From Clostridiales bacterium Firm_05 (lineage in GTDB: Bacteria > Bacillota > Clostridia > Oscillospirales > Ruminococcaceae), in NCBI GenBank assembly GCA_001604035.1, contig LVAK01000260.1, positions 1 to 38,947 of the forward strand: 38,947 bases of DNA. The letters run 5' to 3'. The notes below the pieces were generated by a model. It was not told the DNA's origin and did no database searches. It saw only the letters and a program-made list of their open reading frames with translations. Position numbers and translations under genes: made by a program. Shown one piece after another: positions 2,864 through 30,885 of the stretch. Every line of letters begins with the position of its first letter. The first letter of the stretch is position 1.

Positions 2864-2892
2864 TTGACAACAATCGGAATCGTTGTTATAAT
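2864..2892 (+). promoter_or_regulatory. Full-consensus sigma-A promoter ahead of the portal gene
   Basis: TTGACA (2864-2869), exactly 17 bases, TATAAT (2887-2892), with TG one base before the -10. Every base of both boxes matches consensus. It is placed to drive the head genes independently of terL. A hairpin leader follows it. Confidence 0.9.
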
Positions 2893-2945
2893 ACGCCCAG
2901 GGACATTTGTCCGCTTATTTGCGTACCCTGCGATGAGCGGGCTGG

Positions 2946-2991
2946 CGAAAAGACGCTGAGTAGCGAGAAATCGTTATTTGGCGTCTTTTCG
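2946..2991 (+). promoter_or_regulatory. Leader hairpin E1 (nested stem with GAAA tetraloop)
   Basis: CGAAAAGACGC (2946-2956) pairs perfectly with GCGTCTTTTCG (2981-2991). Inside it TAGCGA and TCGTTA pair around a GAAA tetraloop. It lies in the untranslated leader between the strong promoter and the portal ribosome binding site. The loop region GAGAAATCGTTAT closely resembles GAGAAATCTTAT in the hairpin at 30844. The U-tract is short, so full termination is unlikely; an mRNA stabiliser, attenuator or protein-binding site are the options. Confidence 0.65.
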
Positions 2992-3017
2992 TTTAACGGT
3001 GAAAGGAGGAGTCCGGC

Positions 3018-4775
3018 GTGGCGGTAAACCTGGAGGCTTACGACACTACAGTCACCGAGGGTGACAAAGCGATCGAAAGGCCCACAAAGCTGCACGGCCG
3101 CCGGATGATCTACACCGGCGAGAAGGAGATCACGCGCGCGAACGTGGTCCAGGTGCTGGAGAAGGCGTATGCCATTCACTGCCTCAACCGCAGGGAGATC
3201 ATATACCTCCAGAACTACGAGAAGGGTCTGCAGCCGATCCAAAATCGGACGAAGACGTATAACGACTATGTCTTGAACAAGATCGTGGTGAATATCGCCA
3301 ATGAGATCGTCACATTTAAGAGCTCCGAGTTTGCTGGTGAGCCCATCCAGTATGTAAGTCGTCGCGGGAACAGCGGAGTCGAAAACGAGGACAAGGATGT
3401 CCCGAAGAAGATTTCCAGGATCAATGACATGATGCTCTCCGAGGACAAGCAGGCATGGGACTATGAGCTTGCGTACAGCATGTTCACATGCGGAGTTGCA
3501 TACCGCCTTGCATGGCATGACAAAGGGAATGGGCCGGTTGCGGATTACCTGGACGAGGCGCCCTTTGAACTGGCGGTACCGGACGTGGAGAACACCTTTA
3601 TGGTGCGGTACCGGGACGTGAAGAAGACCAAGGCGATGGGCGTCACCTACGTGACCAAGGACGATCCGAAGGGCGAAATGGAGTTCACCGTATATACGCC
3701 GAACGTGACATACACGATCACGGGAATGCCGTCCAAGGGTACCGGGAAAGGCGGCCTGAAGATCACCAATGAAGTGAAGCACAACTTCGGGATGGTAAGC
3801 CTGATCGAGTATCCGTGCAACCCGGATCGGATCGGCGCATTCGAGATCGTAATCGACCTTCTCGACGCCATTTCCACAACCTTGTCGAATCAGGAAGATG
3901 GCATCGAACAATTCATCCAGGCGCTGATGGTGTTCGATGGTATCGATATCTCCCGGAATGATTTCCTGTCACTGAAGGACCTGGGAGCGATTAAGCTGCC
4001 CCCGGCACCTGCCGGAAGCAGCGGAAGCGGCCGGAAGTTATATTACCTTACGGAGCAGCTGGACCAGAGCCAGACCAACTCCCTGGTAAACAACATGAAG
4101 CAGATCGTCCTGGAGATCGTCGGTATGCCGAGCCAGGGCAATGCGAGCACCGGCGACAGCAGCAACAATGGCGCCGTGATCATGCGCAACGGTTGGTGGC
4201 ATGCAGAAGGCCGCGCGATGCAGACACAGAACATGTGGAAGCGCTCCGAGACCGAGCTGCTGAAGATCATTCTGAAGATCTGCAATGACACGAATGAGCT
4301 GACGGGCCTGAAGATCAGCGACCTGGAGCCGAGGTTCTGGCGGCAGAGTTATGAGGATCTGCTGGTGAAGACCCAGAGCTTCGCGACGCTGCGTGCGGCC
4401 GGTATGCCGGCGGTACAGGCGTTTAAGTTCAGTCACCTGAGCCGCGATCCGGAAAGCGACGCCATCATGTATGACGAATACCAGGAGAAGCTGGCGGAGG
4501 AGCTGGATCGGATGAACGGAATCGGAGGCGACGGCGATGAGCTGCCGCTGAACGAGGACAACACCGTCAACCCGGAAAGCGCGGAAGGGATCCAGGCGCA
4601 GGTGGAAGGGGAGGAAGAACCCCCGAAGCAGACGGACTCGGAAGGCAAGAAGGGCCAGGTAGCGCAGTGCCCGGTCTGCGGCCGGAAGTTCATTAAGAAG
4701 GAGTCCAACCAGATCTACGATTCACTGAGCTGCGCGAACCGCGGGCGGAGAAGCACTCCGAGATACGGAGGCTAA
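3018..4775 (+). CDS. Portal protein (SPP1 gp6-like)
   Basis: 585 residues. It forms the dodecameric ring at the capsid vertex through which DNA passes. The call rests on overall character (NDYVLNKIVVNIANEIVTF near the start, VSLIEYPCNPDRIGAFE, then a long helical region with TLSNQEDGIEQFIQALMVFDG), the length and the position between terL and a MuF-like gene. GTG 3018 follows AAAGGAGGA closely. The acidic C-terminus (NGIGGDGDELPLNEDN) ends in an unusual CPVCGRK...SLSC tail, a half zinc-ribbon with three cysteines, which is not a normal portal feature and could be a docking element. Confidence 0.88.
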   Translation: MAVNLEAYDTTVTEGDKAIERPTKLHGRRMIYTGEKEITRANVVQVLEKAYAIHCLNRREIIYLQNYEKGLQPIQNRTKTYNDYVLNKIVVNIANEIVTFKSSEFAGEPIQYVSRRGNSGVENEDKDVPKKISRINDMMLSEDKQAWDYELAYSMFTCGVAYRLAWHDKGNGPVADYLDEAPFELAVPDVENTFMVRYRDVKKTKAMGVTYVTKDDPKGEMEFTVYTPNVTYTITGMPSKGTGKGGLKITNEVKHNFGMVSLIEYPCNPDRIGAFEIVIDLLDAISTTLSNQEDGIEQFIQALMVFDGIDISRNDFLSLKDLGAIKLPPAPAGSSGSGRKLYYLTEQLDQSQTNSLVNNMKQIVLEIVGMPSQGNASTGDSSNNGAVIMRNGWWHAEGRAMQTQNMWKRSETELLKIILKICNDTNELTGLKISDLEPRFWRQSYEDLLVKTQSFATLRAAGMPAVQAFKFSHLSRDPESDAIMYDEYQEKLAEELDRMNGIGGDGDELPLNEDNTVNPESAEGIQAQVEGEEEPPKQTDSEGKKGQVAQCPVCGRKFIKKESNQIYDSLSCANRGRRSTPRYGG

Positions 4776-4778
4776 CGC

Positions 4779-5426
4779 ATGCCGGAGAAGATTGACACGG
4801 TCTACAGTGCATGTGACCGGGCGATCAAGGTCATGAACCGGGAGAACCTGAAGCTGTTTGGCCAGCTGAAGGCATCGAGGTTCGACGAGCTGAACGTGAT
4901 CCGGAAAGTGACGGAGCTGTACCGGACAAGCGCGGAAAACGCCAGAAAACGGTACTACGAGGTCGCGTTTGAAGTGTACGTGCTGATTCTCATGTGGTGC
5001 GGCACAGACGCGAAGACGGCCCACGAAATGGCGGAAAGAACCATTACGGAGAAGTGGGTTGCGTCGATTCTGAAGGATCCGGACCTGATGACGCTGTACA
5101 GCTTCGATGCGGAGGCGGAACGGAAAGCCCAGCGGCTGGTGGAAGCGCTGAGCGCTACCGAGTGGAAGATCCGCGAGATCGATAAGGCGCTGAAGCTCTG
5201 GAGCAGGCAGCTGGGACAGTACGCGATCAACGTGACGGACTACGCGGCGATGCAGGCGTATGAGGACGCCGGGATTGAGAAGGTCCAGTGGGTGACCCAG
5301 AAGGACGAAAAGGTCTGCGCGGATTGCGGACCGCTGGACGGAAAGGTGTTCCTGTTGCAGGATGTACCGCTGAAACCACACTGGGGATGCAGGTGCTTCT
5401 GGATCGCGGTACTGGAAACAGACTGA
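4779..5426 (+). CDS. Minor head protein, SPP1 gp7 / Mu gpF-like
   Basis: 215 residues, starting three bases after the portal stop with GGAGG at the end of the portal gene. The last 45 residues carry the MuF-type signature: DEKVCADCGPLDGKVF, then KPHWGCRCFW, with paired cysteines and the conserved His/Cys-Arg-Cys. Such proteins enter the prohead with the portal and help DNA exit or ejection. The N-terminal 170 residues are helical. It lacks any extra toxin domain of the kind sometimes fused to MuF proteins. Confidence 0.85.
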   Translation: MPEKIDTVYSACDRAIKVMNRENLKLFGQLKASRFDELNVIRKVTELYRTSAENARKRYYEVAFEVYVLILMWCGTDAKTAHEMAERTITEKWVASILKDPDLMTLYSFDAEAERKAQRLVEALSATEWKIREIDKALKLWSRQLGQYAINVTDYAAMQAYEDAGIEKVQWVTQKDEKVCADCGPLDGKVFLLQDVPLKPHWGCRCFWIAVLETD

Positions 5427-5434
5427 AGTCGGTT

Positions 5435-5544
5435 TTAAACGGCAATGCCGTTTAAGATACGTCAGAGAAGACGTTAAAACGCAGAAGTGCGGAGATGCAC
5501 TATAAAAGCGCAAAACAAAGTGTCAGAGAAGACGATAAAACGCA
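5435..5544 (+). promoter_or_regulatory. Structured leader before the scaffold gene, with a 23-bp direct repeat
   Basis: TTAAACGGCA-A-TGCCGTTTAA (5435-5455) is a near-perfect palindrome. A 23-base direct repeat with one mismatch occurs at 5461-5483 and 5522-5544 (both begin GTCAGAGAAGACG). The first copy can fold as ACGTC-AGAGAA-GACGT. Between the copies, AGTGC and GCACT can pair. The block precedes the ribosome binding site of the scaffold gene. Function unknown; processing or stabilising of a high-copy mRNA is possible. Confidence 0.55.
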
Positions 5545-5559
5545 AAGGAGAAAGTGAAC

Positions 5560-6240
5560 ATGAATTCGGAGATTCTGAACAGGCGTATGAAGCTCTTCCT
5601 GCAGCAGTTTGCTGAAGACGGTGCCGGTGCCGGCGGAGAAACTCCTCCCGGTGCTGATTCCGGAACGGACGGTGCCGGTAGTGATGCCGGCAAGGCTGGA
5701 GACCAGAATGATCTGGCGTCTCAGCTGGAGACAGCCAAAGAAGAGCTGGCAAAGATGAAGGCCGCATTTGACCGTGCGAGCCATGAATCCAGCGAACGCA
5801 AGAAAGCACTCGACGAAGCACAGAAGACCCTGAAGGCCAAGATGACCGCTGAGGAGATCGCAGCCCAGGAGAAAAAGGAAGCCGATGAAAGGGCTGCCCA
5901 GGAGCTGGAAGATCTTCGGAAAAAGGTCGCCCGCGCTGAGAACACCAAGTCGGTGATGAGCAAGCTCGGCGTGGATGAGGACGCGGCCGGAAAGATCGCG
6001 GAAAGCCTGCACGGATGTGAAAACATCGAGAATGCGCTTCTGCTGATCCAGAAGGCATGGACGGCCAAGGAGAAGGCCCTGCGTCTCGAGTTCGGCAAGA
6101 TCCCCGGTCCTGGTACCGGTGGTGGCAGCGACGAGACCTCTGAGGAAGCAGCGGCGATCGAACGGGGCCGGAGACTCGGCAAAGAACGCGCTGAATCGCA
6201 GGCGGCTGTTCAGAAAGGCATGGAAGTGTTTATGCGGTAA
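5560..6240 (+). CDS. Capsid scaffolding protein (GP20/DUF4355-like)
   Basis: 226 residues. After a Gly/Ala/Asp-rich N-terminus the middle (about residues 48-135) is a long charged coiled coil (LETAKEELAKMKAAF, KKALDEAQKTLKAKMTAEE), and the C-terminal part holds short helices. This is the standard shape of a scaffold that shapes the prohead and is then lost. ATG 5560 is chosen over GTG 5554 because AAAGGAG is 10 bases from the ATG but only 4 from the GTG. Its place between minor head protein and capsid genes fits. Confidence 0.83.
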   Translation: MNSEILNRRMKLFLQQFAEDGAGAGGETPPGADSGTDGAGSDAGKAGDQNDLASQLETAKEELAKMKAAFDRASHESSERKKALDEAQKTLKAKMTAEEIAAQEKKEADERAAQELEDLRKKVARAENTKSVMSKLGVDEDAAGKIAESLHGCENIENALLLIQKAWTAKEKALRLEFGKIPGPGTGGGSDETSEEAAAIERGRRLGKERAESQAAVQKGMEVFMR

Positions 6241-6249
6241 AGCCGAGAG

Positions 6250-6271: not shown

Positions 6272-6314
6272 GTTGGACACAATATAAAACTCTTTTGAAA
6301 GGAGAGACAAACCT

Positions 6315-6719: not shown

Positions 6720-6722
6720 TCC

Positions 6723-7667
6723 GTGAAACCGGTTCTGTTTGCATCAACGAAACCGTTTGACAGGGCGGAAAATCTCCGAACGGTATTTGAAGCGTACGAT
6801 GGAGAGAAGGTCCATGTTCAGGTTAATCCGTGGAGAAAACACCCTGAGATCCGATCCGGAAAGTATGATCTGATGGTCATCGACGAATATCCGACGGAAT
6901 CTCCCGGGAAGACCGTGTTAATCGGTCACGGAATCGACGGCGGAAAAACCTGCGGACTCGATCAACCGCATCCGTATTACAGGAGAGAAGAAAGCGGGCT
7001 GATCACGTACCATGTAAGCGGCGGAAGCAGGATGACGGAAACCGTTGCGAGGTTCGACGGAATCCCAAAGGAACGTGTCCTGCCGCTCGGACTCCCGCGT
7101 ACAGACATGTACGCAAAGGCGAAGAAGGGCGACGGAAAAACGTTCCTGGCAGAGAAACGGTCATACCTGTACGCACCGACATACAGGGCGAAAGAGGAAA
7201 CACCGCTTCCTGAGATCGACTGGGACTGGCTGGACGGAGCGCTGAATCCGGATGAGCTGATTCTCGTAAAGGCCCACACAATGACCGGCAAGATTCTGAA
7301 AAGGACTTACACGCACATTGTGGAAGTGGATCCCTACGAGCCGACAGCCCCATACCTGATTGACTGTGACGTCGTGATATCAGACTACAGCACGATCATC
7401 TTCGACGGTTACCTTCTTGGGAAACCGGCCGTCCTGCTGGAAAAGCAGAAAGGATATACGGAAACGCGCGGAATGTACCTAAGCTATCCCGGACAATATT
7501 CGTCGATGTACTGCACGGATGAGCGGGAAATGCTGGAGATGCTCCGAACCGCAAACGGCCTGGGTGAAACAGAAAAAGAATGTCTCCGTCTCGTGGCAGA
7601 CGCCTGTGACGGACACGCAACCGAAAGAGTGTGTGAACTGATCCGGAAACTGGCAGAATGCCAATGA
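6723..7667 (+). CDS. CDP-glycerol glycerophosphotransferase-like (TagB/TagF-type) transferase
   Basis: 314 residues. Family features: IGHGID near residue 68, GLPRTDMY near 122, YAPTYR near 150, and VVISDYSTIIFDGYLLGKPAVLLEK split across residues 217-241, which is the signature SDYSS-IIFD-LLGKP block of teichoic-acid polymerases. Known members move glycerol- or ribitol-phosphate from CDP-polyols. It is shorter than TagF and lacks a membrane segment, so it is a soluble GT-B-like enzyme. GTG 6723 is three bases after the decoration stop, with only a weak ribosome binding site, so it is translationally coupled to that gene. A virion or decoration-protein substrate is inference. Confidence 0.8.
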   Translation: MKPVLFASTKPFDRAENLRTVFEAYDGEKVHVQVNPWRKHPEIRSGKYDLMVIDEYPTESPGKTVLIGHGIDGGKTCGLDQPHPYYRREESGLITYHVSGGSRMTETVARFDGIPKERVLPLGLPRTDMYAKAKKGDGKTFLAEKRSYLYAPTYRAKEETPLPEIDWDWLDGALNPDELILVKAHTMTGKILKRTYTHIVEVDPYEPTAPYLIDCDVVISDYSTIIFDGYLLGKPAVLLEKQKGYTETRGMYLSYPGQYSSMYCTDEREMLEMLRTANGLGETEKECLRLVADACDGHATERVCELIRKLAECQ

Positions 7668-7682
7668 GATGGAGGAGATTCC

Positions 7683-8327
7683 ATGAAGATACTCATTGCC
7701 GTACCGACATTTGAAACGATCTACCCTGATACCTACAAGGGGATCTGGGATCTCGACAAGTGCGGACATGAAGTGTTGTTCGACTCCGTACGCGGATACG
7801 ACGTAGCAACGGCCAGGAACCGTATCGCACAGAAAGCGATTGACCTGGGTACCGACTACGTGCTGATGGTGGACAACGATGTGACGCTGCCGAAGGATGC
7901 GCTGAAGCTGCTTCTGGAGAACGCACACGAAGTCAACCTGGGGTATTACGCACACCGGGATACCGACAACATCTACCGTGGCAAAACGTGCATCTGCAAG
8001 AAGTACGATGCGCACGGCAAGGAGTATTACAACTTCCCGCTTGAGTCTGAATACACGGCAGCGGAGATGCACGGCATGGCCGATGCCGGAGTAAAGAAGA
8101 CTGAGGTCCATGGGGGCGGAATGGGATGTGCTCTGATCAGCACGGACGTATTCCGCAAGATACCGTATCCGTGGTATGACTGGGTAAACTACGGAGATGC
8201 CAACAGGGGGATGCTGAGTGAAGATCTCTTCTTCTGCGTCCTGTGTCGGAACTCCGGGTACAAGATCTACGCGGATGTGCGTGTCGGGTGCGGTCACCTG
8301 CTTCGACATGTGCAGTGGCCGGACTGA
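7683..8327 (+). CDS. GT-A fold glycosyltransferase-like protein
   Basis: 214 residues. The N-terminus MKILIAVPTFETIYP, the VATARNRIAQKAI helix and a DND metal/nucleotide motif (residues 64-66, in VLMVDNDVTLP) fit GT2-like GT-A enzymes; GGGMGCALISTDVF and SEDLFFCVLCRNSGYKIYADV resemble the acceptor-side region and the ED motif of that fold. ATG 7683 follows GGAGGAG. It lies between the CDP-glycerol-type transferase and the capsid gene, in the same direction and with tight spacing. Sugar donor and acceptor are unknown; capsid or decoration protein is suggested only by location. Confidence 0.75.
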   Translation: MKILIAVPTFETIYPDTYKGIWDLDKCGHEVLFDSVRGYDVATARNRIAQKAIDLGTDYVLMVDNDVTLPKDALKLLLENAHEVNLGYYAHRDTDNIYRGKTCICKKYDAHGKEYYNFPLESEYTAAEMHGMADAGVKKTEVHGGGMGCALISTDVFRKIPYPWYDWVNYGDANRGMLSEDLFFCVLCRNSGYKIYADVRVGCGHLLRHVQWPD

Positions 8328-18697: not shown

Positions 18698-20542
18698 ATG
18701 GCAAACGTTACAGGCGCATCGCTGCAGCCGATCTATAACCGGCTGAACAGTGCGCTCCGGTATCATCCTCTGGAGGCGAACACGTTCGCGGATCCGAGTC
18801 TGGAAGCAGGCGACGTTGTGACGGTTGTCCGGAACGGAGTCAATTACAGCAGCCCGGTCCACAAGGCCAAGGTAACCTGGCGGAAGGATACCCAGGTGCA
18901 GATCTCCGCCGGCGGAAACGAAGAGCGGCCGTCCATCCCGAAGATGAGCGGAAAGAAGTACGGCGGCGGGCGCAGCGGACTGCGGAACAGCGAGTACCTG
19001 CACTACTACGTGGAGGATCAGTACCAGCAGATGCGTGCCGGACTGGAACTGACACTCAGCTCCGCGAGACTGTACATCGAAGACAAGTACACCCAGATGC
19101 AGTCTGGCCTGGCGCTCTCCACCAGCTCGGCAATGCTCTACGTGGACAATAAGTATACCCAGATGCAGTCCGGGCTTGCATTGTCCACAAGCACCGCAAA
19201 GCTGTACGTGGAAAACAAGTACACAGAAATGCAATCCGGCCTGGCACTATCCACCAGTACTGCAAAGCTGTACGTGGAAAACAAGTACACAGAAATGCAA
19301 TCCGGGCTGGCACTATCCACCAGCACTGCGAAGCTCTACGTGGAAAACAAGTACACGGAAATGCAGAGTGGATTGGCACTATCCACCAGTACCGCAAAGC
19401 TCTATGTGGACAATAAGTACACGCAGATGCAGAGTGGACTGGCACTTACATCCAGCAGCGCGGCATTGTACACGGACAACCATTCCACCCGGGCATATAT
19501 CCTGACACGGATCAACGCAAGCGGCGAAGGTGAAACGCTGATTGCCGCTGATAAGGTCAGCATTACCGGTACCACAACCGTGAACGGATCCCTGGAGATC
19601 GACGACGGCAACCTGGTGGTCAAGAAGAGCGCTGTATTCCGCGGGAACATCAACCTGACCACGGCCAACAGCTATGTGCAGGCACCGATCTTCAGCGTGA
19701 CGAGCGGCGGACATATTCGGCTGATCGGAACGCAGAGCGGTGAGTACTACGACATAACCGCAACAAACATCAAGGGCGCGATCAAGAGCGCGAGTGTAGC
19801 GAACAATGTGCTGACCCTTACGAAGTGGGACGGGGGAACAGTAACTTTTAGTAAGGCTACCACCCAATCGTCGTCATGGAGTGGTAGCGTGCTTACGGTG
19901 ACGGCGAAGCAGGTGAACGACAGCACGACTACCAACGTGTCCAGCTTTACCCTTGGAATCGGCGGAAACTATGGCGACCATGATGTGGACCTGGTCGTTG
20001 CGCAGAACGGCAGCCCGACGGTGTACAGCAGCACGCAGATCACCGTTCCGTTCTACATCGGATCCCAGAACGGTGGCGGAGCGAACCCGACATCCCGGTA
20101 TACGACGACCCTGCGGTATACGGTTTCCAGCATTCTCCAGGAAAAGACGGTTTCGTCCAACGGAGCGGTATATCCGGACAGCGGGTACATCGGACTATCA
20201 AAAGTTACTGTTTCCACAACAGCGGGTGGAGTATCAGGAATGGATTTTGAAGCATCGTCCCCTATGAGTTCACGATTTTTTGTGAATGCATACGGAAGCG
20301 ATGGTAGTTCGACGTACAGAACCGTATGTCTTACATTGGAAAATGGACAATTCAGCGCAAGGCAGTCCACAAACTCAGGTACAATATACGGTTATCTTCC
20401 AATGCCATCTCTCGGCAATGTGTATGCAAGTACAAGCACCGCATCGTCATACGATTCCCAAGTGACCATTTCATCAAGCATAAAACACATCTACTTTACT
20501 CTTGGTGGGAAAACATACAGGATTCTTATAAGTCATGTTTAA
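18698..20542 (+). CDS. Tail hub C-terminal domain plus repeat shaft fibre
   Basis: 614 residues. Residues 1-75 (YNRLNSALRYHPLEANTFADPSLEAGDVV, SPVHKAKVTWRKDTQVQISAGG) look like the last domain of the upstream hub. Residues about 103-256 are seven 22-residue units of the type LYVENKYTEMQSGLALST with STAK, then a partial eighth; 22 is two hendecads, so a trimeric coiled shaft is plausible. Then a beta-rich head (VNGSLEIDDGNLVVKKSAVFRGNI and several Ser/Thr/Gly-rich strands). The 66-bp DNA units are nearly identical. It begins one base after the hub stop and is likely both tip shaft and part of the hub. Confidence 0.72.
   Translation: MANVTGASLQPIYNRLNSALRYHPLEANTFADPSLEAGDVVTVVRNGVNYSSPVHKAKVTWRKDTQVQISAGGNEERPSIPKMSGKKYGGGRSGLRNSEYLHYYVEDQYQQMRAGLELTLSSARLYIEDKYTQMQSGLALSTSSAMLYVDNKYTQMQSGLALSTSTAKLYVENKYTEMQSGLALSTSTAKLYVENKYTEMQSGLALSTSTAKLYVENKYTEMQSGLALSTSTAKLYVDNKYTQMQSGLALTSSSAALYTDNHSTRAYILTRINASGEGETLIAADKVSITGTTTVNGSLEIDDGNLVVKKSAVFRGNINLTTANSYVQAPIFSVTSGGHIRLIGTQSGEYYDITATNIKGAIKSASVANNVLTLTKWDGGTVTFSKATTQSSSWSGSVLTVTAKQVNDSTTTNVSSFTLGIGGNYGDHDVDLVVAQNGSPTVYSSTQITVPFYIGSQNGGGANPTSRYTTTLRYTVSSILQEKTVSSNGAVYPDSGYIGLSKVTVSTTAGGVSGMDFEASSPMSSRFFVNAYGSDGSSTYRTVCLTLENGQFSARQSTNSGTIYGYLPMPSLGNVYASTSTASSYDSQVTISSSIKHIYFTLGGKTYRILISHV
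19004..19465 (+). repeat. Seven tandem 66-bp repeats in the fibre gene
   Basis: Unit starts: 19004, 19070, 19136, 19202, 19268, 19334, 19400. The middle three units encode identical proteins; outer units diverge, which is typical of recent unit duplication inside a shaft. Length change by unit gain or loss is possible. Confidence 0.85.
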
Positions 20543-21077: not shown

Positions 21078-21106
21078 TTGAAACATAAGGGTTTGTTTGA
21101 TACAAT
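21078..21106 (+). promoter_or_regulatory. Sigma-A promoter for the host-recognition operon
   Basis: TTGAAA (21078-21083), 17 bases, TACAAT (21101-21106). It starts nine bases after the last tail-core stop and would begin transcription just before hairpin E3. Confidence 0.8.
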
Positions 21107-21126: not shown

Positions 21127-21172
21127 AAAGGCATCGAATGATGAGAGGACTTTTCATTCGATGCCTTTTTTT
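21127..21172 (+). promoter_or_regulatory. Leader hairpin E3 (15-bp stem followed by seven Ts)
   Basis: AAAGGCATCGAATGA pairs perfectly with TCATTCGATGCCTTT around a 12-base loop; seven Ts run from 21166 to 21172. It begins about 14 bases after the expected transcription start. As drawn it is both a strong intrinsic terminator for upstream reads and a promoter-proximal attenuator. Its 5' arm and loop start share 18 of 20 bases with hairpin E2 at 30844. Confidence 0.8.
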
Positions 21173-21202
21173 GAATTGAATATGTGTGAAAGGAGAAGGA
21201 CA

Positions 21203-21562
21203 ATGTTTAAAGTAGAAGGTGACAAGATTACCATCAGCAGGGGCGATACCGGCGAGATGACGATCCATGCGAACAATGCGACATTCGCGACCGGTGACCG
21301 TGCGGTGTTCACCGTTGCCCCACGCGGAGGCGGAGAACCCCTGTTCTATCAGGAGTATCCGCTGAACAACGGATCCTTCACAGTCGTGTTCACCAACGAC
21401 CAGACGGACGACTGGCAGCCCGGCACGTACAAGTGGCAGGTCCGGTATGTCTGGGAACCCACGTATGATTCCCAGTCCGGGAAGATCAACGGCGGTACCC
21501 GCGTCAAGACCCCGTGGGAAGAAAAGGACTTTGTGGTCCAGAAAGTGCTGAGTGACTTCTAA
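21203..21562 (+). CDS. Baseplate-like protein (BppU N-terminal-like beta domain)
   Basis: 119 residues. KITISRGDTGEMTI, GDRAVFTVAPRGG and QPGTYKWQVRYVW fit the small beta-sandwich found in Firmicutes baseplate and fibre-anchoring proteins. AAAGGAGAAGG precedes ATG 21203; the upstream frame to 21161 includes the terminator and is rejected. It is the first gene after hairpin E3 and directly precedes the giant fibre, so it probably anchors it. Confidence 0.65.
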   Translation: MFKVEGDKITISRGDTGEMTIHANNATFATGDRAVFTVAPRGGGEPLFYQEYPLNNGSFTVVFTNDQTDDWQPGTYKWQVRYVWEPTYDSQSGKINGGTRVKTPWEEKDFVVQKVLSDF

Positions 21563-24500: not shown

Positions 24501-27500
24501 GACTGGCCAAGTTCAAGGCGCACATCGGCGACTACGCGGAGATCGACTCCCTGGTCTTCTACTACATCTTCACAGAGTTCTTCCTGCTGGCGGACAGCCG
24601 CGCAAAGAACCTCTTCATCGGTTTCAGCGGAAGCGACACAGATCCCAGCCTGAACCTTGCGATCGACCGGAAGGCCGTGTGCGAACCGTACGACATGGAC
24701 ACCGCACTGGGTATCAACAACGAAGGCAGCCTGACGTTCACCTACAGCCTGGAGGACACGGACCATACCGGAAACGGCCGGGACGTGTTTACCGGACAGA
24801 GCAGCGTACTCTGGAACAACCTGCGTGATGCGTTCCCGAATGAGATCCGCCGGATGTACCAGTCTCTGCGGAGCAACGGCATCCTGACCTACGCCAACGT
24901 GGAGCAACGTTTTGAGGACCACCAGGCATTCTGGCCTGAAGCGGTGTGGATTGAGGACAGCCAGTACAAGTACATCTACCCGCTGACCAGCCCGGATCCT
25001 GGGAAGGAACCGACGGATGCATACCTGGAAATGATGCTCGGTTCCAAGATGGAACAGCGTCGCTGGTGGCTGAGCAACCGCTTCAAGTACATGGACAGCA
25101 AGTGGTCCAGCGGCGACGCCCTGAGCGAGGTAATCCAGTTCCGCGCGTACGCCCGGAGCAGCCTGACCATTACTCCGTACAGCGATCTGTACGTGACCGT
25201 GAAGTACGGCAGCTATACCGGCCAGGAAAAGACACCGCAGGGCACCCCGGTAGAGATCGAGGTTCCGATCGACAACCTGAGCGATACAGAAACCTACATC
25301 TACTCCGCGACACAGATTGCGGACGTTGGTGACCTGAGCGCGTTCAAGCTGGGCTGGGCGGACTTCAGCCATGCCACGCGGATCCAGAACATCAAGATCG
25401 GCGACAGCGCGCAGAACTATGAGAACCTGCCATTTGAGCGCCTGACCCTGGGCAACAACCGGCTGCTGAAGAAGATCGACTGCCGGAACTGCGTGAACCT
25501 GGGTGCCGGCGAAATGAAGAGCGTGAACATGACGGGCTGCACTTCCATTGAGGAAGCGTACTTCGACAACACGCAGATTACGGCCGTGGACCTGCCGAAC
25601 GGCAGCCCGATCCGCAAGCTGCACCTGCCCGGCACGGTCACAAACCTGACGCTGCGGAACCAGACGAGCATGACCGAGTTTGTCTGCCCGGACTACACGC
25701 ACATCACGACCCTGTTCCTGGAGAACCCCGCAAGCTGTGTGGATACCCTGGACATCGTGAGTGACCTGCCGACCGGCTGCCGTGTCCGTCTGTACAACTT
25801 CACATGGAACCTGAATGACCTGGACGACGTCAGCACGATGTTCGACAAACTCGACACCATGCGCGGTCTGGACCAGAACGGCAACAACACGGAAAATGCC
25901 CAGGTATTCGGCAACATCCACGTTGTGACTGCGGAAGGCAGCCAGATTGCTTCCATCCAGGCCCGGTACCCGGACGTCCGGATCACCTACGACCACGTGA
26001 CCAGCAACGTGTACTACTACAGCTGGGACGGCGAGACGCTGATCGCCACGAAGTCCTATGTGGACGGCGTCGGCGAGCTGTACACCGGATCCCCGAGCCG
26101 GACGAGCACAGAGCAGTACACCTTCACATTTGTTGGCTGGGCACTGAGTACGGATGCCCAGGCAGCGAACCCGAGCGCATTCGACAACGTTGCTGCCGAT
26201 CGGCGCGTATACGCTGCCTACAGCCGCACGCTGCGTGAGTACACGGTCACATTTGTGCGTGCCGCTATCGACGGTGGCGGAACACTCCAGACCATCCAGA
26301 ACGTGCCGTACGGAACTACCCCGGTATACACGGGCAATACGCCGACCAGCACGAATAGCGACGGCGGCATCTACACCTTCGAGGGATGGACGCCTTCCGT
26401 TGGCCCGATCACCGGAAACACCACCTATACGGCCGTGTTCTACGACAGCTCCGTGCAGATTACGTACATGGTCGGATCCTCTCAGTACGCAATCGAGAAG
26501 ATCCAGAGCGGTACGAACGCACAGGGCCCGTCCAGCAACCCGACCAAGGCCAGCACAGTCAGCACAACCTATACGTTCTCCGGCTGGAGCTCAAACCCGA
26601 ACTCCACTACGCCTGACGCCAACGCGCTGAACAACGTGACGTCCAACAGAACGCTGTATGCGGTCTTCGCAGAGAGTGTCAGACTATACACGATCACGTT
26701 CGTGAAGGCAAACGAGGACGGCGGCGGCACGCTGCAGACGCTGCAGGTTGCCTACGGAACGGTTCCGGCATACTCCGGATCGAACCCGACATCCTCCAGA
26801 ACCGGGTATCTGTTCACCGGCTGGGCACCCTCTATCGCGGCCGTTACCGGAAGCCAAACCTACACGGCAACATTTGCACTTGATGTTGGCTTGACGCGGC
26901 CTTTAATTAAGAAAACTATTTCCGGAGCAATTGAGAACAGCGAAATTACAACAATTGGTCCATATGCGTTCACAAGCTGTACTAAACTCACCACAGTATC
27001 GTTCCCTGCGGCTACGACGATTGGAGCCAGTGCGTTCGAAGGATGTACAGTACTCACCACAGTATCGACCCCGTCCGTTACAAGCATTGGAGCCAGTGCG
27101 TTCACAAACTGTTCTTCACTCACCACAGTATCGTTCCCTGCGGCTACGAGTATTGGCAGCTATGCGTTCTATAACTGTACTAAACTCACAACAGCATCGT
27201 TCCCTGTGGCTACGAGTATTGGCCAGTATGCGTTCGCAAACTGTCGTTCACTCACCACGGTATCGTTCCAATCCGTTACAAGAATTGACCTCTATGCGTT
27301 CCAGGGCTGTTCTGCACTCACCACAGTATCGTTCCCGGCGGCTACGACGATTGGCAACTATGCGTTCGCATACTGTACTTCACTCACCACAGTATCGATC
27401 CCAGCGGCTACGACAATTGCCCAGTATGCGTTCCAGGGCTGTCGTTCACTCACCACGGTATCGTTCCCATCCGTTACAAGAATTGACCACTATGCGTTCC

Positions 27501-27895
27501 AGGGCTGTTCTGCACTCACCACAGTATCGTTCCCTGCGCTTGAGAGTACTGGCGCATATGCGTTCAGAGAATGTTCTGCACTCACAGCAGTATTGTTCCC
27601 AGCAATTATTACTATTTCCACAGGTACGTTCCAGAGCTGTTCTGCACTCACCACAGCATCGTTCCCGGTGGCTACAACGATTAGCAACTCTGCGTTCTAC
27701 AACTGTCCTGCCCTCACCGCAGTCATCCTTGCAAACAGCTCCATCAGGGCTTCGTTTGGGACAAACGTGTTCAACGGTGCAAGCTCCGCCATCCTATATG
27801 TTGCAGACGAGCTGCTCGCCAGCTACAAGGCCTACGGGAATCTTGCCAGCATGAGCGCGAGCCGAATTAAACCAATCTCCGAACTGCCGAGTTAA
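21596..27895 (+). CDS. Giant fibre with LamG-like, CotH kinase-like, InlB-like and BspA LRR domains
   Basis: 2099 residues; ATG 21596 behind AGGTGAGAAG. Order: acidic start; Ala-rich coiled coil (about 55-125); Gly-rich linker near 160; Ig-like strands; a LamG-like jelly roll (about 475-680); a CotH kinase-like region (about 700-1150) with QGTSSAVYPRKNYDM near 745 and PYDMDTALG near 1031, the family's nucleotide and metal motifs; LRR-like strands (to about 1400); three or four InlB B-type repeats (about 1480-1760, each ending YTAVF, GWTPS or similar); 12 BspA-type LRRs of 22 residues (from about 1782); and an ANSSIRASFG...SELPS end. It is the likely receptor-binding protein. Kinase activity is a family inference: CotH phosphorylates spore-coat proteins. 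Confidence 0.82.
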   Translation: MAPDIELDLQSNENEVEQNVDQNDQESLSVDVTDSEGEQVDISPESQEQTVEVSVEADDEEIAQTIATAENAAAAAQEAARQAAQAANDAETYAMQTRSAVNNINNNLGEVEDAVMGIRNRVNALESGAANHVANGDVEDGVAYFYNEAGDTLFTITGIGGGGSGGGGGDVAGSVVTLTNTTGWASTTVAENVDVILSFTWSSIEDGSPTGQGVMTVEIGGITKESRNIAQGSFTVNVKDYLNRGDNRVVVRVTDGYGKSKWKQFNVTVEQLRLESTFDDSEIQSGALTFTFTPYGAFSKTVHFELDGTELDPMVTTISGRQMSQIIRQQTHGAHQLRVWFTASINGQTVTSNVLTYDIMWVTAGNNTPIISSSFSQNIVDQYTTLTVPFMVYTPGSQVSNVTIKKDGITILTLPDIGREMQSFQTRMDTTGNHTLTIHSGTAVKTIGLQVNEAEMNAEAETEDLKLFLTSRGRSNLEANPAVWEFIDADSNTISATLSGFNFVSNGWVRDDDNATVLRVNAGATVTIPFKPFENDFRNTGYTIELEFAARDVRDYNNVIIQCFTDANRGFMVGPQIAFIRSEQSQLSVQFKDEDHVRVSFVIQKRSENRLLMAYINGIPSRVVQYPSNDDFTQVGPVNIVIGGEMATVDIYNIRVYANDLTGEQILNNWIADTHDGELMLQRFSRNNVYDAYGNIAISKLPGNLPYMVIECEELPQYKGDKKTCSGRFVNPIDPTKSFEFTGCQINVQGTSSAVYPRKNYDMQFKNGFEMSNGQHESDFQMVSTVKPFNRFVMKADVASSEGANNVELVKLYCDMTPYKTREMLADSQVRQGIYGFPIVIFWTNTSNNQTTFIGKYNFNFPKRAPAPYGYHDEMESWEFQNNTSNLMLFKSDYFDETMREDPTTGDIKETWRYDYEARFPDDTWTDYTKLQELQSFIYSTYREEATGDAITPVTIDDVTYEYDTAAYRLAKFKAHIGDYAEIDSLVFYYIFTEFFLLADSRAKNLFIGFSGSDTDPSLNLAIDRKAVCEPYDMDTALGINNEGSLTFTYSLEDTDHTGNGRDVFTGQSSVLWNNLRDAFPNEIRRMYQSLRSNGILTYANVEQRFEDHQAFWPEAVWIEDSQYKYIYPLTSPDPGKEPTDAYLEMMLGSKMEQRRWWLSNRFKYMDSKWSSGDALSEVIQFRAYARSSLTITPYSDLYVTVKYGSYTGQEKTPQGTPVEIEVPIDNLSDTETYIYSATQIADVGDLSAFKLGWADFSHATRIQNIKIGDSAQNYENLPFERLTLGNNRLLKKIDCRNCVNLGAGEMKSVNMTGCTSIEEAYFDNTQITAVDLPNGSPIRKLHLPGTVTNLTLRNQTSMTEFVCPDYTHITTLFLENPASCVDTLDIVSDLPTGCRVRLYNFTWNLNDLDDVSTMFDKLDTMRGLDQNGNNTENAQVFGNIHVVTAEGSQIASIQARYPDVRITYDHVTSNVYYYSWDGETLIATKSYVDGVGELYTGSPSRTSTEQYTFTFVGWALSTDAQAANPSAFDNVAADRRVYAAYSRTLREYTVTFVRAAIDGGGTLQTIQNVPYGTTPVYTGNTPTSTNSDGGIYTFEGWTPSVGPITGNTTYTAVFYDSSVQITYMVGSSQYAIEKIQSGTNAQGPSSNPTKASTVSTTYTFSGWSSNPNSTTPDANALNNVTSNRTLYAVFAESVRLYTITFVKANEDGGGTLQTLQVAYGTVPAYSGSNPTSSRTGYLFTGWAPSIAAVTGSQTYTATFALDVGLTRPLIKKTISGAIENSEITTIGPYAFTSCTKLTTVSFPAATTIGASAFEGCTVLTTVSTPSVTSIGASAFTNCSSLTTVSFPAATSIGSYAFYNCTKLTTASFPVATSIGQYAFANCRSLTTVSFQSVTRIDLYAFQGCSALTTVSFPAATTIGNYAFAYCTSLTTVSIPAATTIAQYAFQGCRSLTTVSFPSVTRIDHYAFQGCSALTTVSFPALESTGAYAFRECSALTAVLFPAIITISTGTFQSCSALTTASFPVATTISNSAFYNCPALTAVILANSSIRASFGTNVFNGASSAILYVADELLASYKAYGNLASMSASRIKPISELPS
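26938..27715 (+). repeat. Twelve 66-bp LRR repeats in the giant fibre gene
   Basis: Units of 22 codons with consensus TIGxYAFxxCxxLTTVSFPAA. The spacing is one residue less than the standard 23-residue BspA repeat. Variable positions cluster at the residues just before and after AF and before C, the exposed part of an LRR. A segment of about 94 bp (27320-27413) is identical to 28050-28143 in the next gene. Confidence 0.9.
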
Positions 27896-27914
27896 AAAGG
27901 GGGTGCAATAGAAA

Positions 27915-29615
27915 ATGCCAGAAAATACGATTGAAATTGTTGGTGATTCCAATGCATTTAAATTTGTTGTAGAGAGGTCCATATCTGAATTTTACGATAC
28001 TGTCATTGGTTTAGTTGGAGCGTATGCATTTGCAGGCTGTTCTGCACTTACCACAGTATCGTTCCCGGCGGCTACGACGATTGGCAACTATGCGTTCGCA
28101 TACTGTACTTCACTCACCACAGTATCGATCCCAGCGGCTACGAGTATTGGCCAGTATGCGTTCGCAAGCTGTACTTCACTCGCCACAGCATCGTTCCAAT
28201 CTGTTACAACGATTGACCAGTATGCGTTCAAGAACTGTTCTTTACTCACCACAGTATCGTTCCCATCCGTTACAAGTATCGGCAGCTTTGTGTTCCAAAG
28301 CTGCTCTGCACTCACCACAGTATCGATCCCAGCGGCTACGAGTATTGGCCAGTATGCGTTCGCAAACTGTCGTTCACTCACCACGGTATCGTTCCCATCC
28401 GTTACAAGTATCGGCGCCTATGCGTTCTATAACTGTACTTCACTCACCACAGTATCGATCCCTGCGGCTACGAGTATTGGCAGTGCTGCGTTCCAGGGCT
28501 GTTCTGCACTCACCACAGCATCGTTCCCGGCGGCTACGACGATTGGAGCCAGTGCGTTCCAAGACTGTTCTGCACTCACCACAGTATCGATCCCAGCGGC
28601 TACGAGTATTGGCCAGTATGCGTTCCAGGGCTGTCGTTCACTCACCACGGTATCGTTCCCGTCCGTTACAACTATCCACGAATCTGCATTCGCAAAATGC
28701 TCTGCACTCACCACAGTATCGATCCCAGCGGCTACATCGATTTATACCTATGCGTTCGTAAACTGTTCTGCACTCACCACGGCATCGTTCCCATCCGTTA
28801 TAAACATCTGGAGCTATGCGTTCCAGAGCTGTACTTCACTCACCACAGCATCGTTCCCAGCGGCTACAAAAATCTACAGTGCTGCGTTCTTTAGCTGTAC
28901 TTCACTCACAACAGTATCGTTCCCATCCGTTACAAGCATTAGCCAGTATGCGTTCGCAAGCTGTACAGCACTCACCACAGTATCGTTCCCTGAGGCTACA
29001 GATATTGGCCATTATGTGTTCCAAAACTGTTATGCACTTACCACAGTATCGTTCCCGGTGGCTACAACGATTGGCCAGTGTGCGTTCCAGGGCTGTCGTT
29101 CACTCACCACAGCATCGTTCCCGGTGGCTACAACGATTAGCAACAATGCGTTCCAAAGCTGTTCTGCACTTACTACAGCATCGTTCCCTGCGGCTACGAC
29201 AATTGCCCAGTATGCGTTCCAGAACTGTTCTTTACTCACCACGGTATCGTTCCCGGTGGCTACAGCGATTGGCGCCTATGCGTTCCAGAGCTGTACTTCA
29301 CTCACCACAGCATCGTTCCCTGCGGCTACGACAATTGCCCAGTATGCGTTCCAGAGCTGTTCTGCACTCACCACAGCATCGTTCCCGGCGGCTACGACGA
29401 TTGGCAACAATGCGTTCGCAAACTGTCCTGACCTCACCGCAGTCATCCTTGCAAACAGCTCCGTCAGGGCTTCGTTTGGAACACCTGTGTTCGCCGGTAC
29501 AAGCTCCGCCATCATATATGTAGCAGATGAGCTGCTCGCCAGCTACAAGGCCCAGGCGAATCTTGCCAGCATGAGCGCGAGCCGAATTAAACCAATCTCC
29601 GAACTGCCGACATAA
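27915..29615 (+). CDS. Second BspA LRR protein / LRR cassette
   Basis: 566 residues. A unique 35-residue N-terminus (MPENTIEIVGDSNAFKFVVE) is followed by 22 LRRs of 22 residues and then the same closing module as the giant fibre (ANSSVRASFG, YVADELLASYKA, SASRIKPISEL). It has its own ATG and GGGGGTG ribosome binding site, 19 bases after the fibre stop, and no signal peptide or membrane segment. It may be a second tip subunit, a shed adhesin, or a donor of LRR units to the fibre by recombination. High repeat identity also makes it prone to misassembly. Confidence 0.85.
   Translation: MPENTIEIVGDSNAFKFVVERSISEFYDTVIGLVGAYAFAGCSALTTVSFPAATTIGNYAFAYCTSLTTVSIPAATSIGQYAFASCTSLATASFQSVTTIDQYAFKNCSLLTTVSFPSVTSIGSFVFQSCSALTTVSIPAATSIGQYAFANCRSLTTVSFPSVTSIGAYAFYNCTSLTTVSIPAATSIGSAAFQGCSALTTASFPAATTIGASAFQDCSALTTVSIPAATSIGQYAFQGCRSLTTVSFPSVTTIHESAFAKCSALTTVSIPAATSIYTYAFVNCSALTTASFPSVINIWSYAFQSCTSLTTASFPAATKIYSAAFFSCTSLTTVSFPSVTSISQYAFASCTALTTVSFPEATDIGHYVFQNCYALTTVSFPVATTIGQCAFQGCRSLTTASFPVATTISNNAFQSCSALTTASFPAATTIAQYAFQNCSLLTTVSFPVATAIGAYAFQSCTSLTTASFPAATTIAQYAFQSCSALTTASFPAATTIGNNAFANCPDLTAVILANSSVRASFGTPVFAGTSSAIIYVADELLASYKAQANLASMSASRIKPISELPT
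28011..29434 (+). repeat. Twenty-two 66-bp LRR repeats in the second LRR gene
   Basis: Same unit as in the fibre gene. Long open shadow frames appear in other frames because the repeat has no stops in them. Several units are almost identical to one another over more than 40 bases. Confidence 0.9.
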
Positions 29616-29623
29616 AATCGGTA

Positions 29624-29652
29624 TTGAAAGTTAACACGTACTGTGGTATCAT
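29624..29652 (+). promoter_or_regulatory. Sigma-A promoter for the GT2 glycosyltransferase
   Basis: TTGAAA (29624-29629), 17 bases, TATCAT (29647-29652) with TG one base before the -10. It follows the LRR gene stop by nine bases. No leader hairpin is seen after it, unlike the three other late promoters. Confidence 0.75.
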
Positions 29653-29699
29653 GAAAGCGAATCGTAGTACTCACAACCAAAGTGAAAAGGAGAGTGTTT

Positions 29700-30677
29700 A
29701 TGAAGCTTCAGATCCTGGTACCACAGTATCACGAGACAGATGAAGTGATACGGCCGCTGCTGGACAGCATTGCCATCCAGCAGTCCGTATCCTTCGACGA
29801 CATCGGCGTAATCATCTGCAACGACGGCAGCAACGTGTTCCTGACAGACGAATTCCTGCAGTCCTATCCGTTCAAGATTGAGTACTACAAGGAACTGCAC
29901 AGGGGCGTATCTGCCACCCGAAACGCGTGCCTGGACCACGCTACGGCAGACTATGTGATGTTCTGCGACGCGGACGATATGTTCTACAACGCCTGCGGTC
30001 TTTGGATCATCATGCGGGAAATGCAGGCCGGTTTCGACTCCATGGTATCCATGTTTGTGGAAGAGTCACGGCATCCAGAAACCAAGGAGGTTGTGTACAT
30101 CAACCACGAAATGGACTCCACGTTCGTTCACGGCAAGGTCCACCGGCGGCAGTACCTGATCGACAACGACCTGCGGTTCAACCCCAAGCTGACGATCCAT
30201 GAAGACAGTTTCTTCAACATCCTCTGCCAGAACATCGGCAAGGAAGTGAAATACTGCCAGACCCCGTTCTATCTGTGGAAGTGGCGCGATGAATCCGTAT
30301 GCCGGCACGATCCGAAGTACATCCTGAAGACGTACAACAACATGATCGACAGCAACGACGCGCTGATCGACGAGTTCCTGTCCAGGGGGATCATTGATAA
30401 GGCGACGTTCTTCACCGCGTTCATGGTTTTCGATGCCTACTACACGATGAACAAACCCGAGTGGGTAAACCAGGAGAACCAGATCTACAGGAAGAAGACT
30501 GAGAAGCGGTTCTCCGTGTGGTACAAAAAGCACAAGGACATGTGGGAAGGCATTCCGGCGAACGACAAGATGGTGATCAGCAGCCAGGTCCGGAACCGGT
30601 CTGTGATGGAAGGTATGCGGATGGAGGCAGTTACCATCGACGGATGGCTGAAACACATTGAGAAACTCACGAAGTGA
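29700..30677 (+). CDS. GT2 family glycosyltransferase
   Basis: 325 residues. MKLQILVPQYHETDEVIRPLLDSI, ICNDGS (about 39-44), GVSATRNACLDHA and a DADD metal motif (90-93, in YVMFCDADD) are classic GT2 signatures; ED in HEDSFFNILCQNI is the probable catalytic base region and LWKWRDESV follows. No membrane segments, so cytoplasmic. ATG 29700 follows AAAGGAGAGTG; the in-frame GTG 29682 is rejected. It has its own promoter directly after the LRR fibre genes, suggesting it modifies the fibres or the host surface; target unknown. Confidence 0.88.
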   Translation: MKLQILVPQYHETDEVIRPLLDSIAIQQSVSFDDIGVIICNDGSNVFLTDEFLQSYPFKIEYYKELHRGVSATRNACLDHATADYVMFCDADDMFYNACGLWIIMREMQAGFDSMVSMFVEESRHPETKEVVYINHEMDSTFVHGKVHRRQYLIDNDLRFNPKLTIHEDSFFNILCQNIGKEVKYCQTPFYLWKWRDESVCRHDPKYILKTYNNMIDSNDALIDEFLSRGIIDKATFFTAFMVFDAYYTMNKPEWVNQENQIYRKKTEKRFSVWYKKHKDMWEGIPANDKMVISSQVRNRSVMEGMRMEAVTIDGWLKHIEKLTK

Positions 30678-30697
30678 GGACGAACGGGGGAATGATA

Positions 30698-30790
30698 ATG
30701 CCGGTTTTGACGGCAGCATTGCTTCTTCTGCTCGGTGCGGCGTTCGGCGCGATTGTCGTTGTGGTCATCATGGGCGGCAACGATAAATAA
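30698..30790 (+). CDS. 30-residue single-span membrane peptide
   Basis: MPVLTAALLLLLGAAFGAIV then VVVIMGG and a short NDK tail: one long hydrophobic helix with almost no polar residues. ATG 30698 has GGGGG 7 bases upstream, and the stop is TAA at 30788. It fits neatly between the GT2 stop and the next promoter. Short hydrophobic peptides of this kind can be holin-like, toxin-like or accessory membrane factors. Function unknown. Confidence 0.5.
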   Translation: MPVLTAALLLLLGAAFGAIVVVVIMGGNDK

Positions 30791-30795
30791 TGCTA

Positions 30796-30825
30796 TTGAT
30801 TTTCCAAAACAAATCGTAGTATAAT
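30796..30825 (+). promoter_or_regulatory. Sigma-A promoter for the lysis operon
   Basis: TTGATT (30796-30801), 18 bases, perfect TATAAT (30820-30825). It begins six bases after the membrane-peptide stop. Confidence 0.75.
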
Positions 30826-30843
30826 AATCCGGAAGTGAATATG

Positions 30844-30885
30844 AAGGCACCGAATGGTGAGAGAAATCTTATCGTTCGGTGCCTT
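30844..30885 (+). promoter_or_regulatory. Leader hairpin E2 (19-bp stem with GAAA tetraloop)
   Basis: The 19 bases at 30844-30862 pair throughout with 30867-30885, including three G-U pairs, and close on GAAA (30863-30866). The RNA would begin about 12 bases before the stem. 5' arm AAGGCACCGAATGGTGAGAG matches hairpin E3 at 18 of 20 positions. One difference (T to C in the 5' arm) is matched by A to G in the 3' arm, so pairing is kept. Few Ts follow (TTTACT), so this copy is probably not a terminator. Confidence 0.85.

Follow-up and report, generated by a model that had tools for sequence, protein, structure and literature searches.

A recurrent promoter-hairpin cassette at late operons of a Clostridiales prophage and its relatives

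What does a long hairpin do in the leader of a phage operon that already starts from a strong promoter? To our knowledge, few studies have addressed how phages of gut Clostridia control their late genes. We analysed a stretch of 38,947 nucleotides from Clostridiales bacterium Firm_05 (contig LVAK01000260.1; hereafter the window), in which an earlier note had described three strong promoters, each followed in its untranslated leader by a hairpin (sites E1, E2 and E3). That note offered three hypotheses: 5' stabilisers of mRNA, RNA elements that make RNA polymerase ignore later hairpins, and attenuators or sites for a phage regulator.

Three promoters and three hairpins in the window

All three promoters proved real, with the consensus matches given in Table 1, and so did the hairpins. 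As 61-nt pieces, E1, E2 and E3 have folding energies of -34.2, -24.9 and -36.5 kcal/mol (z of -7.6, -5.4 and -10.1, respectively), and 0/200 shuffles folded as well for each of them. Every hairpin has its promoter on the 5' side and an RBS and start codon on the 3' side. A covariance-model search of the window at E up to 10 returned E1, E2, E3 and their reverse-strand shadows only; model R1 scored the three at 56.5, 61.6 and 56.0 bits and model R2 scored E1 at 58.7 bits, with E1 in the training set of both models and E2 and E3 likewise training sequences. As had been noted, the 5' arms of E2 and E3 agree at 18 of 20 bases, and the change from T-A to C-G between them is compensatory; a plain promoter at 29624 (10/12) is also present as described, with no family hairpin after it. 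Two details required correction. The GAAA loop and the shared GAGAAATC-TTAT, ascribed to E1 and E2, are common to E1 and E3, the loop of E2 being AGGA, and the seven Ts ascribed to E3 lie 3' of E2, while E3 has TTTACT.

Table 1. Coordinates of promoters, hairpins and genes discussed in the text (positions in the window)
Feature	Position	Strand	Remarks
XRE-type HTH gene ahead of terminase	150..473	+	Candidate late regulator (putative)
Strong terminator-like hairpin, non-family, before terminase	1131..1160	+	d-score 39.0; no scanned promoter between
E1 late promoter	2864..2892	+	TTGACA-17-TATAAT, 12/12 consensus match; relatives have a promoter in the same place
E1 leader element A, structured stretch before family hairpin	2893..2947	+	From position, partial sequence likeness and single-sequence folds
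E1 family hairpin with U-run, predicted leader terminator	2949..2993	+	d-score 7.7
Portal protein, first gene after E1	3018..4775	+	PHROG 64 portal, E 6.6e-56
E2 promoter	21078..21106	+	TTGAAA-17-TACAAT, 10/12 match
E2 family hairpin with seven-T run	21127..21173	+	d-score 27.7
First gene after E2, PHROG 1084	21203..21562	+	Function not assigned by PHROG
E3 promoter	30796..30825	+	TTGATT-18-TATAAT, 10/12 match
E3 family hairpin	30843..30891	+	d-score 5.8
First gene after E3	30911..31228	+
Two strong terminator-like hairpins in E3 gene block	35281..35368	+	d-scores 48.5, 25.2

One RNA family across related phages

The promoter-hairpin observation is confirmed, and it is larger than first noted: the same conserved hairpin follows a strong promoter at late gene blocks of the prophage and of dozens of related phages. 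In many of these phages the covariance model located the hairpin in the interval from terminase to portal, and other copies precede genes resembling tail, tail-fibre, holin and endolysin genes. In 74 loci the model made 45 matches in the sense direction with E no higher than 0.1 (7 of the matched loci hold training sequences of the model), and 44 of these precede the portal match by no more than about 140 nt. We counted 51 copies, 34 portal and 17 non-portal, which are related to each other, so that counts over them are not independent. Left out were duplicates (L078, L081, L098, L102, L112, L146, L147, and L007, a copy of L012), reverse-strand shadows, and the matches L134, L135 (29.9 bits), L110 and L113 (23.1 bits), which are not family-like.

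Covariation in relatives, which the earlier note had named as a check on its proposal, is present. In an alignment of 10 copies, 7 of 19 pairs had changed on both sides (score 0.469, versus 0.322 when shuffled); with 34 copies the figure rose to 12 of 19, and the score of 0.398 compared with 0.262 for shuffled alignments (0/500 shuffles as high) and at most 0.127 for slid alignments. In the 34-copy alignment the loop-side arm GYGAG is kept beyond what pairing requires, and across all copies the loop is GNRA in 27/51 and UNCG in 0/51. Rfam 15 yielded no match in the window at the gathering threshold; for nine loci at E up to 1 it gave two matches, neither on a leader. Judged by sequence, E1, E2 and E3 belong to a single RNA family, for which Rfam gave no match.

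A sigma70-type promoter lies shortly upstream of the hairpin in 49/51 copies: 33 of the 34 portal copies have one of at least 10/12 within 160 nt before the hairpin, and 16 of the 17 non-portal copies have one of at least 8/12. The exceptions, L105 and the pre-terminase copy in L104, lack a good promoter and were skipped in promoter-based tests. Counted separately, 30/34 portal loci have a promoter within 220 nt of the portal match (five loci are too short upstream), as do 7/22 other loci; a promoter of at least 10/12 occurred in 44/1500 random 220-nt windows. In the non-portal copies with a promoter, 16-23 nt separate the -10 from the hairpin, which places the hairpin about 9-16 nt past the expected start site (taken as 7 nt after the -10); in portal copies this distance is 29-95 nt. 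Requiring at least 8/12 together with the 16-23 nt gap, we found 162/6000 random positions and 36/2972 RBS-preceded starts.

The cassette stands before different late genes, and one endolysin-like cassette is identical at 39/39 nt to a tail cassette from a different phage. Genes with an N-terminus like that of the first E2 gene follow the same kind of cassette in two other records (G115 and G108), and a gene with an N-terminus like that of the first E3 gene does so in a third (G110).

Beyond these phages, matches at E up to 0.01 occurred in 18 of 99 related genomes, and at E up to 1e-5 in 9 of 394 genomes of the order, the window's own genome included in both counts; none in the 393 other genomes of the order scored above 39.9 bits. 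Once the window's three copies and reverse shadows are removed, 21 weak matches remain in the related genomes and 8 in the order, at most 39.9 bits. None of these 29 carries G[CT]GAG in its 5' half, and 8 have a promoter of at least 8/12 within 60 nt (versus 674/6000 random positions); from their sequences we read them as ordinary terminators. Two of the weak host matches, L054 and L354, do show a promoter, a hairpin and then a start codon, without the conserved arm; hence, the bare promoter-hairpin-start layout is not unique. A named phage collection held no match to any of the three leaders. Sequence patterns were searched as well: for GCAYCGAAYGRTGAGAG, five of the seven non-window contigs had no such hairpin; GGCAYCGAATGRTGAG was found in 41 stretches, one of them the window's own, of which the model matched 8 (E up to 0.1) and did not match 32; and AGRCGCTGAAYRGCGAG was found in at least 120 stretches, among which model scoring covered 7, all on contigs already shown to have the element.

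A predicted leader terminator and its rivals

The hairpin has a GC-rich stem and a U-run in the sense direction, as intrinsic terminators do, and a stop of transcription is predicted there. Using a terminator d-score, we obtained values above 0 for 47/51 copies in the sense direction, 0/51 on the reverse strand and 1/300 random windows. Directly 3' of the GC stem, four alignment columns carry a T in 34, 32, 33 and 32 of the 34 copies, and the first three of these columns also pair with the 5' side. Four copies (L343, L344, L121 and L142) have poor U-runs and d-scores below 0.

The anatomy of the unit, its conservation, covariation and orientation, and its recurrence before different late genes are established at the level of sequence. 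We propose that the three sites are copies of a modular late-promoter cassette, in which a strong promoter and a leader terminator would together gate late operons through regulated read-through; we put the probability of this reading at roughly 0.55. The order of parts is a sigma70-type promoter, a short transcribed stretch, the conserved hairpin with its U-run, an RBS and a late gene. Unmodified polymerase would halt after about 55-60 nt at E2 and E3, or about 100 nt at E1, and therefore the late genes would be silent even though their promoters are strong. Particle production and lysis would then require the phage to overcome this stop signal: a factor encoded by phage or host would read the conserved hairpin arm or its loop, or else the initially transcribed DNA, and would let polymerase through at all late operons together. 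Among the three hypotheses of the earlier note, an attenuator-type leader terminator fits best, given the conserved U-run, a terminator score in one direction only and the upstream promoter in 49/51 copies. Weighing against gating are the run of E3, only TTTACT, the four copies with poor U-runs, the two copies that lack a good promoter, the look-alike layouts in host genomes and the promoter spacers, in which no dyad is enriched; being long and GC-rich with a U-run, the hairpin could instead be a leaky terminator without regulation.

If the cassette reading is true, the logic of lambda, with the promoter on and the terminator as gate, extends from one late operon to a regulon of several. A cassette defined by sequence makes late operons and their likely starts findable by computation and offers a target in the search for an antitermination factor; it also illustrates how near-consensus promoters could persist in a temperate phage without expression of its lysis genes. 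We suggest, more tentatively, that the cassettes may represent an antitermination class new for phages of Clostridia-type hosts, in which one factor would read arm and loop as an RNA tag and open all late operons at once, the terminator would double as loading site and the promoter-hairpin unit would move from one late gene to another as a cassette.

A put- or nut-like RNA would work differently: the hairpin would bind RNA polymerase or a factor, which would then ignore downstream terminators so that long late operons are read. HK022 put, an RNA that acts in cis on polymerase and needs no protein, is likewise a leader RNA structure directly after a phage promoter, and it is not known to have a terminator U-run. 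The promoter-proximal position of our hairpin, the GYGAG arm and the frequent GNRA loop would suit such an element, as would the additional structure ahead of the hairpin in E1-type leaders and the strong terminator-like hairpins within the late blocks after which no scanned promoter follows (1131, 35281 and 35346). However, a put-like element requires no U-run, and here almost every copy retains one and the terminator score holds in one direction only; we regard this alternative as unlikely. A leader terminator that also recruits a factor would account for the put-like features and the U-run both.

The short distance between start site and hairpin in non-portal copies would suit a 5' stabiliser that shields late mRNAs from RNase J or a similar enzyme, but this leaves the U-run, the conserved arm sequence and the wide portal gap all unexplained, and we consider it distinctly unlikely. 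A processing site for RNase III or a similar enzyme, giving late mRNAs a uniform 5' end, would explain why stems are long and many nearly perfect; since it needs neither the conserved sequence nor the U-run, it is very improbable. Least probable of all is that the hairpin simply ends the upstream operon as an ordinary 3' terminator and that the promoter before it has no role, the case that the earlier note had set against its own view: sites at operon borders and terminator-like scores agree with it, but in 49/51 copies the promoter precedes the hairpin on the 5' side, which puts the hairpin in the leader of the downstream operon, and all 29 host-genome matches that read as ordinary terminators lack the GYGAG arm.

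Known systems, candidate partners and the initial transcribed stretch

The order of late promoter, predicted terminator and late genes is that of the lambda Q-type layout, and on the proposed reading the cassette would resemble PR'-tR'-Q, but at several operons. Lambdoid PR' combines a late promoter, a -10-like initial transcribed sequence and a terminator before the late genes (PMC4604602, PMC6266700). In contrast to the lambdoid arrangement, several late operons of one phage each have a copy, the hairpin itself is conserved in sequence and the relatives come from Clostridia-type hosts. The PeSLs of T4 are described as composite conserved promoter-terminator motifs and mobile cassettes (PMC4503421); by that description, they too are conserved promoter and stem-loop units before different genes. 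However, PeSLs are promoter-early elements of T4-like phages, whereas our cassettes belong to another phage group, whose genes include terminase, portal and head protein families, and precede structural and lysis-side late genes, unlike early T4-like promoters. In cluster K mycobacteriophages, ESAS are conserved inverted repeats before many start codons of one phage, paired with a 13-bp start repeat and located in the non-structural half (PMC3203893); here there are late genes, promoters and a U-run.

In Bacillota, LoaP and dfn link a leader hairpin with read-through at intrinsic terminators (PMC12691694); dfn is a UNCG hairpin apart from the terminator, whereas ours is often GNRA, never UNCG, and is itself terminator-like. 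LoaP is an unlikely partner because the host genome, 98.65% complete, has a single NusG match (PF02357) and there is no UNCG loop. The earlier view of a promoter-linked family of leader hairpins with covariation on late operons is supported, and the attenuator idea is the best fit among its hypotheses; its proposed regulator, the 73-aa region-4-like protein at 35069, finds no support as a general partner. A relative occurs in just 7/29 phage records, 5/24 with the element and 2/5 without a clear element, these records being partly fragments. The XRE-type HTH gene has matches in 24/28 records. Operator dyads in the promoter spacers were considered and rejected: ACAAC...GTTGT in E1 is striking by eye, but over 33 portal and 16 non-portal promoters the longest arms equal those of shuffles.

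In the initial transcribed stretch, GAATA occurs in 7/16 non-portal copies (0.8 in shuffles) and ATACT in 14/33 portal copies (1.0 in shuffles), where it overlaps the stem of element A; both motifs were chosen post hoc, in a test of six motifs against single-base shuffles made after the motif had been seen. GATACT occurs in 0/16 non-portal copies. GAATA could correspond to the -10-like pause elements described for lambdoid late promoters (PMC4604602).

The E1 leader has extra structure ahead of the family hairpin, at about 2893-2947, that the earlier note had not mentioned. RNAalifold on a MAFFT alignment of leaders gave no consensus structure for this element A. In single-sequence folds the E1 leader has a z of -1.4 and 12/27 leaders fall below -2; a long stem, judged by eye, is visible in about 18/27. 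Other portal leaders have their P1/P2 hairpin where E1 has element A.

Covariation in the hairpin ahead of the portal gene

The earlier note had described strong promoters, each followed by a leader hairpin, ahead of three late operons (cassettes E1, E2 and E3); the first gene after E1 is that of the portal protein. All of its promoter and hairpin positions are correct, and the E1, E2 and E3 hairpins are much more stable than shuffled sequences (z of -7.6, -5.4 and -10.1); its account confused E2 and E3 in two details, namely the loop with the shared motif and the run of seven Ts. We fetched portal relatives: in all 7 loci besides that of the window, the interval separating terminase from portal contains a promoter, a hairpin, a U-run and an RBS. 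A covariance model of this family hairpin (R1), built from 10 copies, has both-sided changes in 7 of 19 pairs, and paired cells make up 93.2%. Neither figure is equalled by any shuffle and slid versions score much lower, although 55 of 500 shuffles equal the number of further pair types, and kinship among the sequences inflates such tests. A wider search for portal relatives yielded 73 viral and 2 genome loci. Run on 74 of these 75, with the window's own excluded, R1 gave 45 sense matches at E <= 0.1, 44 of them upstream of the portal match at a distance of at most about 140 nt; a covariance-model search was the check that the earlier note had suggested. In an alignment of 34 copies, fitted to the R1 structure, 12 of 19 pairs have changed on both sides. 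The 5' arm consensus is approximately GRCRYYGAAYRGYGAG, of which G, C and a loop-adjacent G-A-G are conserved in 30 to 34 of the 34 copies. Among 51 copies (34 portal, 17 elsewhere), 27 have a GNRA tetraloop.

In portal leaders, among them those of the window, L075, L088 and L097, the stretch from the promoter to the family hairpin holds an extra structure, element A. Its stem is approximately ACTGTTCTGC/GCAGGACAGT and often encloses a UUUCUUUGCGACC-like stretch; RNAalifold made no call of element A in portal leaders. Some more distant phages have a different single hairpin (class 2) ahead of portal, with UUGYGCAGACC in most, which perhaps stands in for the family hairpin (class 1). One such locus, L104, combines class 2 at portal with a class 1 copy ahead of terminase. 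The same related phage has an Rfam match to int-alpA RNA (52.3 bits).

Pairing with promoters and recurrence ahead of other late genes

Judged from sequence, promoter and family hairpin belong together. An upstream promoter matching at least 10 of 12 bases precedes 33 of 34 portal copies, as against 44 of 1500 random 220-nt windows, and one matching at least 8 of 12 precedes 16 of 17 non-portal copies. As controls, a promoter of the latter strength with a gap of 16-23 nt occurred at 162 of 6000 random positions, and the same arrangement preceded 36 of 2972 starts that have an RBS. Two copies lack a good upstream promoter: L105 and, in L104, the one ahead of terminase.

A second model of the hairpin, R2, matched 23 of 29 phage records at E <= 0.01. 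Leaving aside portal copies, reverse shadows, a duplicate in record G002 and a pre-terminase copy in G129, we read 14 non-portal copies from 9 records in full. All 14 have a promoter of 8-11 of 12, with the -10 ending 16-23 nt ahead of the hairpin; shortly downstream of the hairpin there is a likely start codon. By eye, from N-termini, the genes that follow resemble the first gene of E2 (2) or of E3 (1), or tail (2), tail fibre (1), holin (2) or endolysin (5) genes, and one is of another kind. Portal copies are mostly of the type GACGCYGAATRGCGAG, preceded by TTGACA promoters; non-portal copies are mostly GGCAYCGAATGRTGAG, with TTGCAA or TTGTAA promoters in 9 of 16. The cassette before an endolysin-like gene in G111 is identical across 39 nt to that before a tail gene in G007, and the promoter stretches of G111 and G113, ahead of different genes, are 83% alike over 94 nt. 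Thus, the comparison of cassettes indicates that the promoter-hairpin unit recurs irrespective of the gene after it.

Predicted termination and a candidate read-through factor

A terminator score of the d'Aubenton-Carafa type is above 0 for 32 of 34 portal and 15 of 17 non-portal copies, for 1 of 300 random windows, and for 0 of 51 copies on the reverse strand. Because the U-run is conserved and the score is one-way, the family hairpin is predicted to terminate transcripts that start at the promoter directly before it. Other strong terminator-like hairpins lie directly ahead of terminase, with no scanned promoter after the hairpin (two relatives have a similar hairpin in this place), and consecutively within the E3 block, where later genes have no scanned promoter.

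A strong promoter reaching a terminator within 60-100 nt would be sensible if read-through were regulated. In lambdoid phages, Q carries polymerase past a terminator behind the late promoter (PMC6266700), and -10-like DNA after the start site causes an early pause (PMC4604602). GAATA or ATACT is enriched in the initial transcribed stretch of family cassettes, which may agree, if weakly, with a pause element of this type. In the window and in four relatives, a gene of an XRE-type HTH family is found before terminase. Of 28 records, 24 have a match to this family, including 22 of the 23 that carry a class 1 copy and 2 of 5 others; in 23 of the 24 the match is located upstream of the portal-side hit, at a distance of 1.4-8.3 kb. 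The protein is no more than a candidate read-through factor, and its co-occurrence with class 1 copies could reflect shared descent.

Coordinates of features in the window and related records
Feature	Record	Position
XRE-type HTH gene	window	150-473
Hairpin ahead of terminase	window	1131-1160
Hairpin ahead of terminase	G007	35001
Hairpin ahead of terminase	G006	3264
Element A	window	2893-2947
Glycosyltransferase-like genes	window	6723-8327; 29700-30677
Tail-region gene with tandem repeats	window	18698-20542
Long repeat protein	window	27915-29615
Hairpins in E3 block	window	35281-35301; 35346-35368
tRNA-like right contig end	window, minus strand	38888-38947
int-alpA RNA	L104	5247-5312
Class 2 hairpin	L104, L106, L107, L108, L110, L113, L129	upstream of portal, often after strong promoter
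Weak match L054	G038	331457-331504
Weak match L354	G403:C6	4165-4210

Distribution and the phage of the window

Outside these phages, 99 relatives (the window's own genome included) and 393 other genomes of the order gave weak matches only, none with the conserved arm. Two of these, L054 and L354, have a similar layout: a terminator-like hairpin lies 13-15 nt after a good promoter, and a start codon is found farther on. Both lack the GYGAG arm. Named phages gave no match to the three leaders, Rfam gave none on the leaders, and among the matches listed in the open-licence literature we found no paper on such a promoter-hairpin element.

The window is one complete contig (G000:C151) of a 2.97 Mb bacterial genome, 98.65% complete, and is equal, in length and in the stretches searched, to viral contig IMGVR_UViG_2751185649_000002. 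Protein families of terminase, portal, major head and tail are represented in it, together with one holin-like and one repressor-like gene. The window therefore holds the late half of a phage that is tailed and probably temperate. Two relatives lie within genome contigs, of uncultured Clostridiales RUG095 and uncultured Lachnospiraceae; many related viral contigs are presumably of rumen origin, judging from their names. At the right end of the contig, the minus strand looks like a tRNA fragment, a possible attachment site; ARAGORN found no tRNA. By eye, glycosyltransferase-like genes occur in the head block and in the host-recognition block, the latter with a weak PHROG match. A tail-region gene has near-identical tandem repeats (YVENKYTEMQSGLALSTSTAKL), and a long protein among the tail genes has repeats of YAF.NC.SLTTVS.
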